A model generated the notes under the pieces. That model made no database searches, was not told the DNA's origin, and worked only from the letters and a program-made list of their open reading frames with translations. Made by a program: the position numbers and the translations under genes. Below, piece by piece: positions 6,202 through 44,557 of a stretch of DNA of 64,000 nucleotides (position 1 is the stretch's first letter; the number at the start of each line of letters is the position of its first letter). Source of the DNA: Frigoribacterium sp. CFBP 13712. Its GTDB lineage: Bacteria > Actinomycetota > Actinomycetes > Actinomycetales > Microbacteriaceae. The stretch covers positions 98,399 to 162,398 of the forward strand of contig NZ_JACYVH010000004.1 of the NCBI RefSeq assembly GCF_014842255.1, read 5' to 3'.

Positions 6202-8250
<2,049 letters not shown>

Positions 8251-8446
8251 TGATCCAGATGTACAGCAGCGGCGCGCGCGAGGGCCAAGCTGAGCGGTCG
8301 GGCCGCCCGCCGTACCCCGCGCTGCCCTGCCGCCCCGGCCCGCGCCCTGCCGCCCCGGCCCGCGCCCTGCCGCCCCGGCCCGCGCCTGCGCCGCGCCACC
8401 CCGCCCTGCCACCCAGCCCCCCCCCGCCCCGCCCCGCCCCGCCCCA
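8251..8446. repeat. Tandem GC-rich repeats (20-bp unit x3, then CCCCG runs)
   Basis: Around 8324-8386 a 20-bp unit (CCTGCCGCCCCGGCCCGCGC) is repeated three times. From 8415 to 8445 CCCCG runs are repeated. The region reads as simple-sequence DNA, G-rich on the minus strand. No gene is visible. The C-rich end abuts the left hairpin of the DUF559 cassette. Confidence 0.8.
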
Positions 8447-8516
8447 GCGATGAACCGCGTTCGCGAAGATGAACTGCGATCTATCGCGGTTCATCTTCGC
8501 GAACGCGGTTCATCGC
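8447..8516. repeat. Left hairpin repeat of the DUF559 cassette (34-bp stem)
   Basis: Arms 8447-8480 and 8483-8516 are complementary over 34 positions with one G-T pair and a 2-nt centre (CT). The 64 bp at 8450-8513 recur at 9673-9736 with one difference. The stem is too long and the loop too short for an ordinary terminator. Confidence 0.9.
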
Positions 8517-8626
8517 GGCTCACAGGCCGACGAGACGACTCCTCCACACCGGCGTTCCGCCCCTCTCGGTACACAGCCCAGGAGGCGCGAGCCGGCCTGG
8601 CGACTCCGGGTCGCCACGATCGGTGC

Positions 8627-9676
8627 ATGACCCCGACAGACCCCCGCCGCTGCCCGATCGTCTACGCCGCCGGCCATGGCGCCGGGACGCGAGAGCAGCG
8701 GCGCCTCCAGCTGAGTGCGCTGCGAGGCGATCTCATCCGCATCCACAGGGGCGTCTACGTCGCAGCAGACGTCTGGAGCGGACTCGACGCGCGCGGACGG
8801 CATGTGGTCCTCACCCGAGCCGTGACCGCCGGCCTCGACGAACGGTGCGTCATCGGACACCACACCGCCGCGGCCGTATGGGGCCTGCCTCGCGTGCACG
8901 ACGACTACGGCGACGTGGTGACCGTGTTCGACCCGAGACGCTCGACGACCAGCAGGTCCACGCACCTCCTGCGGCGTCCCGGCATGGTGACACCCGACGA
9001 CCAGGTCGTGGATGATGGGCTGCGGCTCACGACCATCGAACGGACCGCGGTCGACGTCGCACGGACGGCGTCGTTCGCCGACGCGGTGCTCTGCGTCGAC
9101 GCCGTCCTGCGGCGGCTCGTCCTGCCCCACGTCGATCGACCACTGGACCCGGTGGTCGTCCGAGCCCTCGATTCGCGGCGAGCCGATCTGCTCGGCCGGT
9201 TGGGCCCTCCGTCGCATCCCGGCAACCGCTCTGCGCGACGCGTCCTCGAATTCGCGTCGCCCCTGGCCGAGAGCGCCGGGGAGTCGTTGTTGCGCGTCGT
9301 CCTGTTCGAACTGGGCCTGTCGCACGTCGAGCTGCAACGGGTCTGCAGAGATCGGGGCCGCTTCGCCGGGCGATGCGACGCCTTCCTGGCCGAGCTCGGA
9401 GTGGCCATCGAGTTCGACGGCCACGCCAAGCTGACCGACCCCGAGATGCTGCAGGGACGGCGACCGGCAGACGTCCTGCGGGAGCGGAGTCGGCGGGACC
9501 GGCGCCTCCTCGGTGACCCTGCGATCCGCGTCGTCGTGCACTGCGAGTACATCGACCTCGTCCAGCCCGAGAGGCTCGTCGGACTGCTTCGTTCAGCCGG
9601 GGTGCCGCTCGACCCTCGTCGCGTGACCGCCGCCGCTCGCATCGCCCGTCGGCGCTTCACGGGCATGACGTCATGA
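8627..9676 (+). CDS. AbiEi-like winged-helix plus DUF559-like endonuclease-fold protein
   Basis: 349 residues. Residues about 20-60 (REQRRLQLSALRGDLIRIHRGVYV) look like the winged-helix start of AbiEi-type antitoxins, and HTAAAVWGLP follows in the usual place. The C-terminal part has the VAIEFDGHAK motif (about 260-269) seen in DUF559/Vsr-like restriction-endonuclease folds. Such fused proteins are common in Actinobacteria and their role is unknown; no partner toxin gene is adjacent. Unusually, near-identical hairpins lie 110 nt upstream and directly at the stop codon: the TGA stop is part of the right hairpin. Start at 8627 is chosen because upstream codons read through hairpin DNA. Confidence 0.75.
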   Translation: MTPTDPRRCPIVYAAGHGAGTREQRRLQLSALRGDLIRIHRGVYVAADVWSGLDARGRHVVLTRAVTAGLDERCVIGHHTAAAVWGLPRVHDDYGDVVTVFDPRRSTTSRSTHLLRRPGMVTPDDQVVDDGLRLTTIERTAVDVARTASFADAVLCVDAVLRRLVLPHVDRPLDPVVVRALDSRRADLLGRLGPPSHPGNRSARRVLEFASPLAESAGESLLRVVLFELGLSHVELQRVCRDRGRFAGRCDAFLAELGVAIEFDGHAKLTDPEMLQGRRPADVLRERSRRDRRLLGDPAIRVVVHCEYIDLVQPERLVGLLRSAGVPLDPRRVTAAARIARRRFTGMTS

Positions 9677-9736
9677 ACCGCGTTCGCGAAGATGAACTGC
9701 GATCTATCGCGGTTCATCTTCGCGAACGCGGTTTAT
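9673..9736. repeat. Right hairpin repeat of the DUF559 cassette
   Basis: Direct copy of 8450-8513, 63 of 64 bases identical, again an almost perfect palindrome with CT at its centre. Its first bases (ATGA) include the stop codon of the DUF559 gene. Confidence 0.9.
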
Positions 9737-9855
9737 CGCGGGGCGGGGCGGGGCGGGGCGAGCCGGGGCGGGGCGAGCCGGGGCGGGGCGAGCCGGGGCG
9801 GGGCGAGCCGGGGTGGGGCGAGCGAGGCGGGGCCGGGCCGGGGCGTGGCGAGCGC
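9737..9855. repeat. GGGGC runs and 15-bp tandem repeat
   Basis: GGGGC is repeated right after the hairpin, then a 15-bp unit GAGCCGGGGCGGGGC is repeated four times from 9760. The plus strand is G-rich here, the mirror image of the C-rich run left of the cassette. G-quadruplex formation is plausible. Confidence 0.8.
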
Positions 9856-9873: not shown

Positions 9874-11865
9874 CTAGCTGACGTGCACGTCGGGGCGGCG
9901 CGAGCGGTGCGGCTCGGCCTGGCGCAGGACCTCGCGGGTGACGGGTGCGACCTCGCCGGCGCCCGTCACCAGGAACCTCCCCATGTTCGACAACGGGCTG
10001 CCCTCGGTCCACTCGAAGTAGATGTCGGGCACGACGCCCGTCTCGTCGCGGATCGCCAGCAGCACCGACGCGATCGTGTTCGGCACCGCGCCGCTCGTCA
10101 CACGCAGCACCCGGTACCCGTGCACGACGCAGCCGGTGACGACGAGGTCCTCCTCGAAGTCCGACGAGTCGCCGGGGTGCACCTCCAGGAAGATGACCGG
10201 CGAGCGCTGCGGGATGCCGCTGTACCGCCGCTCAGCGCTGAGCTTCTTCTTGTAGATCTCGGCGACCTCTCGCCCCGGCTCGTGCGCGATCACGCGGATC
10301 GACCCGTACTCGTCGGCGTCCTCGCGCACGTACCCGAGCGCGGTGTCGTCGAACGAGATCGAAGTCGCCCGCAGCTGGAACGACCGGCGCACCCGCGAGA
10401 ACAGCGACACGGCCATGATGCCCACGATGAAGATCGCCGCGATCTTGACGCCGTCGGGCCGCTCGACGACGTTGACGATGGTCGTGTAGACGAAGACCAG
10501 GGCGATGGCGCCGAAGCCGATCGTGCGCTTCGACTGGCGTGCGCGCCGAGCCGACAGGGTGACCGCGACGGAGGCGCTGGTGATCAGCACGAGCACCCCC
10601 GTCGCGTAGGCCCCGCCCTGGGCGTCGACGTCGGCGTCGAACACGATGGTGATGATGAACGCCACGACGGTGAAGACGAGCACGAGCGGGCGCACCGCGC
10701 GCGCCCACTGCGGCGCCATGCCGTAGCGGGGCAGGTACCTCGGCACGAGGTTCAGCAGGCCGGCCATGGCCGAGGCCCCGGCGAACCACAGGATGCAGAT
10801 GGTGCTGATGTCGTAGATCGTGCCGAAGCCGTTACCGAGGTACTCGTGCGCGAGGTAGGCCAGTGCGCGGCCGTTCGCCGCGCCTCCTGCCTGGAACTGC
10901 TCTTGAGGGATCAGCAGGGTCGTGACGAAGCTCGACAGGATGAGGAACGAGCTCATGATGATCGCCGCGGTGGTCAGCAGGCGGCGGGCGCCGCGGATGC
11001 GACCTGTGGGTCGCTCGGCGGTGTCGGTCGCGTCGCCGGTGATCTGCGGCATGACGGCGACGCCGGTCTCGAATCCGGAGAGGCCGAGCGCGAGCTTCGG
11101 GAACACGATCAACGCGATCCCTACCATCACCAGAGGGTTGCCGTGCTGCACCGTGAGCGCCTGCCACCAGTTGCCGATCACGACGGTGTTCTCGGCGACA
11201 TGGAAGATCGACACCGCGATGACGACGAGGTTCAGCGTCAGGAACACCCCGACGAGCACCACGGCGATGCCGATCGCCTCCTTGAACCCGCGGAGGAACA
11301 CGGCGGCCAGCAGCGCGATCAGGAACAGCGTGATCGGCACCTCCGCCCCGTGGAACCACTCGGGCGTGAACGGGTTCTCGACGGCGTGGGCGGTCGCGTC
11401 GGCAGCCGACAGCGTGATGGTGATCATGAAGTCCGTCGCCGCGAAGCCCAGCAGCACCAGCACGAACAGCTTGCCGCCCCACCAGGGCAGCAGCCGCTCG
11501 AGCATCGCGATCGAGCCCTCGCCGCGGGGGCTCTCGCGGGCGACCCGGCGATAGACGGGCAGCGCGCCGAGCAGCGTGAGCGCGATGAGCACGATGGTCG
11601 CCAACGGCGACAGCAGACCGGCGGCGACCGCGGCGATGGCGGGCTGGTATCCGAGGGTCGAGAAGTAGTCGACGCCGGTCAGGCACATGACGCGCCACCA
11701 CGAATGCGTCTTCTCGACCTTCTCGGCGTGGGGCCCCTGGTGGGCGCCCGAGTTCTCGGTCAGCCCGTCGAGCAGCCAGTTCCGGAGGCGCGAGTCATCC
11801 GGTCGCGTCGGCTGCGGTTCGAGCGCATCGCCGTCGCGACCGCTTCTCTCAGACACTGTGGACAC
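9874..11865 (-). CDS. APC-superfamily permease, probable potassium/amino acid transporter
   Basis: 663 residues with about 12 hydrophobic segments and a cytoplasmic C-terminal domain of roughly 190 residues. The segment [16 protein letters not shown] sits in transmembrane helix 1, as in the KUP/KimA-like branch of the APC superfamily; such proteins are often annotated as amino acid permeases. It lies directly downstream of kdpE and kdpD on the same strand, with a 99-nt gap, which suggests it is their target and carries K+. That assignment is inference. Start at GTG 11865 is chosen for GGAGGGT 5 nt upstream; a GTG at 11913 is also in frame. Confidence 0.82.
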
Positions 11866-11964
11866 GGCGGACCCTCCGATCGCACGCTCCGAGGCCGAAG
11901 CACGCGTGATCACACGTTAGGCGTGCGATCGGCTGCTCAGAGGGGCTCGAGCGTAGGGATTCCG

Positions 11965-44297: not shown

Positions 44298-44557
44298 CCC
44301 GCGCCTCCTGATCCGATGGGGGTGCGGCGGGTTCCCGTCATCCGCGGCGGGTCAGCGCTGACCCGCCCGCGATGACACGAACCCGCCGAACCCGCACGGC
44401 GCCGCCCCGCCCAACCCGCAGCACGCCGCCCGGCCGACCCGCGCCTCCTGACCCGCGCCTCCTGATCCGATGGGGGTGCGGCGGGTTCCCGTCATCCGCG
44501 GCGGGTCAGCGCTGACCCGCCCGCGATGACACGGACCCGCCGCACCCGCACGGCGCC
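44298..44557. repeat. Two 106-bp direct copies of a palindromic element
   Basis: 44298-44403 and 44452-44557 are the same 106 bp with two base changes (offset 154). Each starts with CCCGCGCCTCCTG (abundant motif) and contains a 74-bp imperfect palindrome centred on GGGTCAGCGCTGACCC. They look like a non-autonomous or REP-like element. A partial copy may begin the window. Confidence 0.88.

Follow-up and report, generated by a model that had tools for sequence, protein, structure and literature searches.

The 64,000-nt stretch of Frigoribacterium sp. CFBP 13712 DNA analysed here (the window) contains a gene framed by two long palindromic hairpins, which sequence comparison leads us to read, with a probability of roughly 0.6, as the 'master' unit within a REP/RAYT-like system lacking a RAYT and built on an unrelated protein. 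In the proposed mechanism, a gene fixed at one locus would encode a protein that joins an AbiEi-like DNA-binding half to a half that is probably a Vsr/PD-(D/E)XK-like nuclease; this protein would recognise the cognate hairpin (60-nt core) flanking its own gene and would nick or process it, perhaps when the hairpin is extruded or single-stranded at replication. Hairpin copies would then be written into intergenic sites, non-autonomous hairpins of the gene's own type would build up to one or two dozen per genome, and the gene would stay put, save for inversion or deletion to a solo hairpin by recombination between the flanking palindromes. These steps carry different weights: we strongly infer that the protein recognises the hairpin, consider it likely that the protein also disperses it, and infer binding, cleavage and a role of the protein as spreader or maintainer of the hairpins.

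Table 1. Features of the hairpin-framed gene and of its locus (positions in the window).
Feature	Position	Strand	Remarks
Left hairpin	8447..8516	.	34-nt arms; 60-nt core GAACC...GGTTC at 8452-8511; 110 nt upstream of gene start
AbiEi-like/nuclease-like gene, 349 aa	8627..9676	+	Conserved start; AbiEi match; model and fold search; conserved residues
Right hairpin	9673..9739	.	Bases 2-4 supply the gene's stop codon
glgX-like gene, left border of locus	6202..8250	-	Longest frame extends to 8412
APC-type permease gene, right border of locus	9874..11913	-	

Both 64-nt copies that a preliminary description had reported (8450-8513 and 9673-9736) are present and differ by one base. Each is, as described there, a near-perfect palindrome around a 2-nt centre (one mismatch in the arms of the left copy), a single gene lies between them, and its stop codon TGA (9674-9676) is made by the right copy. 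The limits of the reading frame had to be revised, however, since the frame opening at 8450, inside the left hairpin, is merely the longest one and the conserved protein starts at about the ATG at 8627. As single-stranded DNA the left hairpin has a folding energy of -44.6 kcal/mol, versus a mean of -14.2 in shuffled sequences (z = -13.9), and no palindrome scoring 14 or more arose when the window was shuffled three times with a first-order Markov model. The bordering genes are a glgX-like gene, which we take to encode a glycogen debranching enzyme, and what is presumably an APC-type permease gene.

The AbiEi-like N-terminus proposed in the preliminary description was supported: the N-terminal half (about residues 24-155) matches the PADLOC AbiEi models with an E-value of 1.9e-9. 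With the Pfam AbiEi models, the window protein falls below the cut-off and one of five orthologs reaches 3.5e-6. The endonuclease-type C-terminus proposed alongside it stood in part, in that its motif residues are conserved and a Vsr-like fold is weakly supported by structure search, but Pfam DUF559 does not match the window protein. Residues E219, D251, E262, D264 and K268 are kept in 69, 69, 68, 65 and 68 of 70 homologs, respectively, with four of the main orthologs carrying N for D264 and one G for E262; we take the resulting E..D..ExDG..K pattern to be a PD-(D/E)XK-type motif. AlphaFold2, run on six sequences, returned a model with pLDDT 80 and pTM 0.80, for which Foldseek found nothing in the PDB at an E-value of 0.001 or better. 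The first match, Rv2827c (1zel), had a probability of 0.99, but an E-value of 0.011 and a TM-score of 0.29; ranks 2-5 were mitoribosome chains, and weak matches to Vsr endonuclease (1cw0 and 1vsr) came at ranks 9 and 13, with E-values of about 1. By sequence, the protein matched nothing in the PDB at E-values up to 1, the NCBIfam search gave one weak unrelated match, and the Y1/HUH transposase model did not match. The C-terminal half may fairly be regarded as a probable Vsr/PD-(D/E)XK-like nuclease. The gene is also far less conserved than the adjoining permease: across the 12 gene-bearing relatives, identity is 48-66% for the gene versus 87-93% for the permease.

The association of gene and hairpin was assessed across congeneric homologs, which occupy 72 places in 16 genomes (2-7 per genome). 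The analysis covered 70 of these places, omitting G009:C3:219958 and G001:C6:283908 (our own genome and contig labels, G000 being the genome of the window); genes in G013 and G015, which are near-identical, make some homolog rows near duplicates. With gene ends estimated from tblastn, a palindrome was counted as upstream if it ended no more than 160 nt ahead of the estimated gene start or 30 nt past it, and as downstream if it began no more than 80 nt ahead of the estimated gene end or 200 nt past it. A palindrome was found at an expected flank in 64 of the 70 homologs (44 upstream, 56 downstream, 36 on both sides), a figure that takes in a few GC-rich stems with a different build, such as a poly-G run in locus L080; 26 homologs have no upstream hairpin by this definition, 14 no downstream hairpin and six neither. 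Control windows of the same size shifted 500 nt outward, many of which fall in coding DNA, contained palindromes in 4/70 and 3/70 cases. Among the other genes called in the window, palindromes lie upstream of 4/42, downstream of 8/42 and on both sides of 1/42, counts that come from a simple gene caller that skipped the target gene and in which two flanks are the cassette's own hairpins; the one gene with palindromes on both sides is glgX, which borrows the cassette's left hairpin. The protein family was found in 63 of the 120 genomes and 52 of the 85 genera that were sampled, Frigoribacterium accounting for three of the genomes. In other Microbacteriaceae genera, a flanking palindrome was found at 21 of 27 loci, versus 0/27 and 0/27 in controls, the loci being one per genome, the top of a longer set of matches and inclusive of one broken gene model (L197), and the upstream window being wider than for the congeners. 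Twelve of these 21 loci score 18 or more, and nine have only stems scoring 13-16.5.

A stricter set, comprising the 33 genes with both flanking hairpins 50-80 nt long, was used to compare hairpin and protein sequences. The two flanks of one gene have a median similarity of 0.65, versus 0.12 for flanks of genes whose proteins are little alike, and among genes with protein similarity under 0.6 the best match of a flank was its own partner in 33 of 33 cases. Protein similarity and hairpin similarity are correlated (Mantel r = 0.42, a value reached by none of 999 permutations). These comparisons indicate that each homologous gene has its own hairpin and that repeat and protein coevolve. In the main orthologs, the hairpin has a 60-nt core with two boxes per arm and a 19-nt period, ordered as box, spacer, box and loop followed by the mirror image, for a total of four mirrored boxes. 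Across 40 aligned cores, 95.7% of cells are paired and 13 of the 27 pairs have changed on both sides; compensatory changes account for 100 cells versus 26 in shuffles, which do not translate into probabilities because the rows are related. The stem itself, and more than its sequence, is thus kept or copied. The consensus of the 40 cores (GAACC...GGTTC) does not contain GTAG, and an Rfam search gave nothing near the gathering score, the best matches being microRNA-precursor models that hit the hairpins below threshold.

The preliminary description had suggested a mobile or self-protecting cassette whose protein may recognise the hairpins, and the part of this claim that stands is that gene and hairpins form a unit and that recognition by the protein is probable; the cassette itself does not appear to move, given that 13 of the 15 readable congeneric genomes have the gene flanked by glgX and the permease, with both neighbours found in all 13. 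In G008, the contig ends at the native locus. Among relatives, the native locus occurs in full, inverted, solo-hairpin and empty states: the gene is inverted relative to its neighbours in G003 and G012, G005 has a solo hairpin and no gene, and G002, the closest relative by the permease (97%), has neither gene nor hairpin. The inverted, solo-hairpin and empty states are those that would be expected from recombination of palindromic flanks. The protein matched none of the 50,697 phage records searched, and a search of 72,556 plasmids gave two matches, both weak and partial; these results, together with the single locus, lead us to reject a mobile gene as the main reading. Nor were the features of an insertion sequence or composite transposon seen, the cassette being fixed at one locus and seven sites yielding no clean duplication. 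It is the hairpin, and not the cassette, that appears to spread.

The notion that the hairpin is no more than the frame of one cassette had to be abandoned, since full copies lie elsewhere in the same genome, away from the gene. That genome (3.16 Mb, 99.99% complete) contains 22 full-length hairpins, two in the window and 20 outside it, plus one half copy. Its copies are 89-100% identical in the better orientation, and those of other genomes at most 88% among the matches listed. The window's hairpin variant was matched in 11 of the 60 genomes searched, its own included, all of them of the same genus; five of the 15 congeners (G002, G008, G009, G010 and G012) gave no match at an E-value of 0.001. 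The dispersed copies in the own genome are apparently intergenic by ORF inspection, with several overlapping possible reading frames. Hairpins do therefore occur widely without the gene, which counts against the earlier claim of a mobile or self-protecting cassette, and the reverse case, a gene in a relative without hairpins, which would have counted against it too, is rare (the six of 70 above).

Other congeneric genomes carry dispersed hairpins of other variants. Variant b occupies 14 places in G013 and 13 in G015, and variant c 19 in G007 and 18 in G011, where one copy (C2:444987) is nearer to variant e. Variant e occupies 11 places in G003 and 15 in G012, and a further 5, 3, 3, 2, 1 and 1 in G007, G008, G004, G011, G001 and G006, respectively. 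Variant d is found in seven of the 16 genomes, namely G004 and G009, whose genes bear it, and G008, G010, G013, G014 and G015. Over the five variants counted, the dispersed copies mostly follow the variant of the local gene, with some sharing, so that the match is strong and non-exclusive; relics, exchange or paralogs may be the source of the non-matching copies. With these exceptions, the abundance of a cognate repeat is linked to its gene, and G002, which has no gene at the locus, gave no match to the window's variant. Within 229 kb of DNA from the own genome, two further hairpin families match two paralogs: the hairpin beside the C2:109.5k paralog resembles two near-identical long palindromes in the window (44317-44396 and 44471-44550) and one at L035:1982, and that beside the C1:747k paralog resembles one at L034:3807. 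Three orphan hairpins of the same genome (L030:12858, L035:5805 and L039:828) match poorly the hairpins of its five family genes.

At all seven own dispersed sites compared (of 20), the hairpin is absent from G002, and at one own site, C2:43116, it is absent from both G002 and G005; the differences from G002 would fit either gain in G000 or loss in G002, and the seven sites gave no clean case of target-site duplication. Six sites compared between the near-identical G013 and G015 were all common to both, and no empty site was seen there. Four hairpin copies of G005, whose locus is without the gene, retain 25, 23, 23 and 22 of the 27 pairs and a fifth was scored at 15 of 27, attributed to an indel, versus a mean of 25.4 over the 22 copies of G000; this is suggestive of hairpin decay in G005, but the sample is too small. 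Two hairpin pairs with a spacing of 1.2 kb, in G004 and G008, were considered as further cassettes and rejected, as no homolog was found inside them with tblastn at an E-value of 1e-4. Opposite the own sites C6:137774 and C6:145655, G002 (L167/L168, G002:C4) bears an unrelated hairpin of the AGACCCC family, and the two close species thus have the same intergenic sites occupied by different hairpin families. A region of G012 (L177, G012:C2:939500-944500) holds seven palindromes of three or four kinds in less than 1 kb (1918-2745), a possible hairpin hot spot.

By layout alone, the gene-hairpin system could be classed with REP/RAYT. RAYTs were recognised by a repeat-flanked gene, coevolution, fast evolution and repeat abundance linked to the gene (PMC2817692), RAYT genes are single-copy and vertically inherited (PMC8049555), and mobilisation of REPs by Y1 transposases has been proposed (PMC2817692). 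As in REPtrons, a palindrome-flanked gene is here accompanied by dispersed non-autonomous repeats that coevolve with the protein, and the gene evolves faster than its neighbours, sits mostly at one locus and is vertically inherited (PMC2817692, PMC8049555). Unlike REPtrons, the Frigoribacterium system has one long palindrome with a 60-nt core instead of a 20-40 nt GTAG-tagged REP, and 11-22 own-type copies in the genomes counted here instead of hundreds. Its protein also differs in matching no Y1/HUH transposase model, and Y1_Tnp (PF01797) matched in 0 of the 16 congeneric genomes, versus 5 of 14 control genomes; a RAYT elsewhere in the genome was discarded as a candidate on this result. Because the 16 genomes show no Y1_Tnp match and the hairpin has no GTAG tag, the system behaves like a REPtron yet is not one, and because the enzyme that defines REP/RAYT was tested for and not found, we count it as a new kind. 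With TIRtrons (TIRYT; PMC3733652) it shares long inverted repeats framing a gene and moderately abundant families in some species, and it differs from them in that TIRtrons have a tyrosine transposase and each flank here is itself a complete palindrome. The likeness to the type IV antitoxin AbiEi and to Rv2827c resides in the N-terminal half and in the binding of inverted repeats by AbiEi proteins (PMC7319586), and the differences are the lack of an adjoining toxin, the extra nuclease-like C-terminal half and the hairpins on both sides and dispersed; an AbiEii nucleotidyltransferase toxin is absent beside the gene, its neighbours being glgX and the permease in each of the 13 genomes whose locus contains it. 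The C-terminal half resembles Vsr endonuclease and DUF559-type PD-(D/E)XK proteins in its weak Foldseek matches and its E..D..ExDG..K residues, and departs from them in the missing Pfam DUF559 match and in having no mismatch-repair context.

Autoregulation by an AbiEi-like repressor, the main rival, could hold together with the REP/RAYT-like reading; as the sole explanation, in which the hairpin is an operator through which the protein represses its own gene and the dispersed hairpins form either a regulon or a set of passive copies, we regard it as unlikely. The position of the left hairpin upstream of the gene start and the four mirrored boxes of the core suit an operator, as does the binding of AbiEi antitoxins to inverted repeats of their own promoters (PMC7319586). 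Against it, the hairpin is found near the stop codon more commonly than upstream, 22 intergenic copies would be abnormal for operators, and a full 27-bp stem with compensatory changes is not normally needed; the locus moreover has no adjoining toxin gene, and the conserved nuclease-type residues would be left unexplained. In a second rival, the protein would be a defence or self-discrimination nuclease and the hairpins would mark or protect self DNA or restrain the nuclease, for which the inclusion of the AbiEi models in the PADLOC defence library, the weak Vsr-like fold match and the 2-7 paralogs per genome can be cited. This explanation we hold to be improbable, as the locus has no partner gene, about 20 copies in 3.2 Mb are sparse for a self mark, G002 lives without both gene and hairpin, and G005 retains hairpins without a gene at the locus.

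Two further explanations deny the protein a part in the matter, and to each we assign very little credence. The hairpins could be host elements, such as terminators, mRNA stabilisers or supercoiling sites, that merely lie near the gene, and their intergenic position, as far as ORF inspection tells, agrees with this; but no T-run follows the copies in the window, such palindromes are rare at the other genes of the window, and the hairpin sequence varies together with that of the encoded protein. Alternatively, an unrelated transposase encoded elsewhere (RAYT, IS200/IS605 or another insertion sequence) could move the hairpins, with the gene as a hitch-hiker. This idea draws on the proposed mobilisation of REPs in other organisms by Y1 transposases (PMC2817692), and it is hard to reconcile with the screen of the 16 genomes, which covered the Y1_Tnp family, and with the observation that one gene family, and no insertion sequence, is consistently framed by the hairpins.

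Carried beyond the locus, the REP/RAYT-like reading would define a new class of mobile DNA, to which we give even odds: dedicated proteins of the PD-(D/E)XK type, equipped with an AbiEi-like reader domain, would disperse palindromic hairpins, in many independent gene-hairpin pairs across the Microbacteriaceae and in convergence with REP/RAYT. In the sources consulted, wherever hairpin repeats have a named partner protein, that partner is a Y1/HUH transposase (PMC2817692, PMC8049555, PMC3733652), and term searches of the open-access literature listed no paper on a pairing of hairpins with an AbiEi/nuclease-like protein, preprints and most subscription papers being beyond reach. If the class is real, hairpin mobilisation would have evolved independently with a protein family of another superfamily, AbiEi/DUF559-like proteins, common in actinobacteria and similar to antitoxins or to the products of defence genes, would gain a function, and recognition could be decoded from natural protein-hairpin pairs available by the dozen.

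A separate repeat was noticed in the same DNA. The 11-mer AGGAGGCGCGG occurs at 32 places in the window, on both strands (for example at 67, 6109, 8056, 10878 and 61887), versus 0.37 expected from shuffles, and may represent a signal used genome-wide, Chi-like or of another kind; it also adjoins several of the hairpins.
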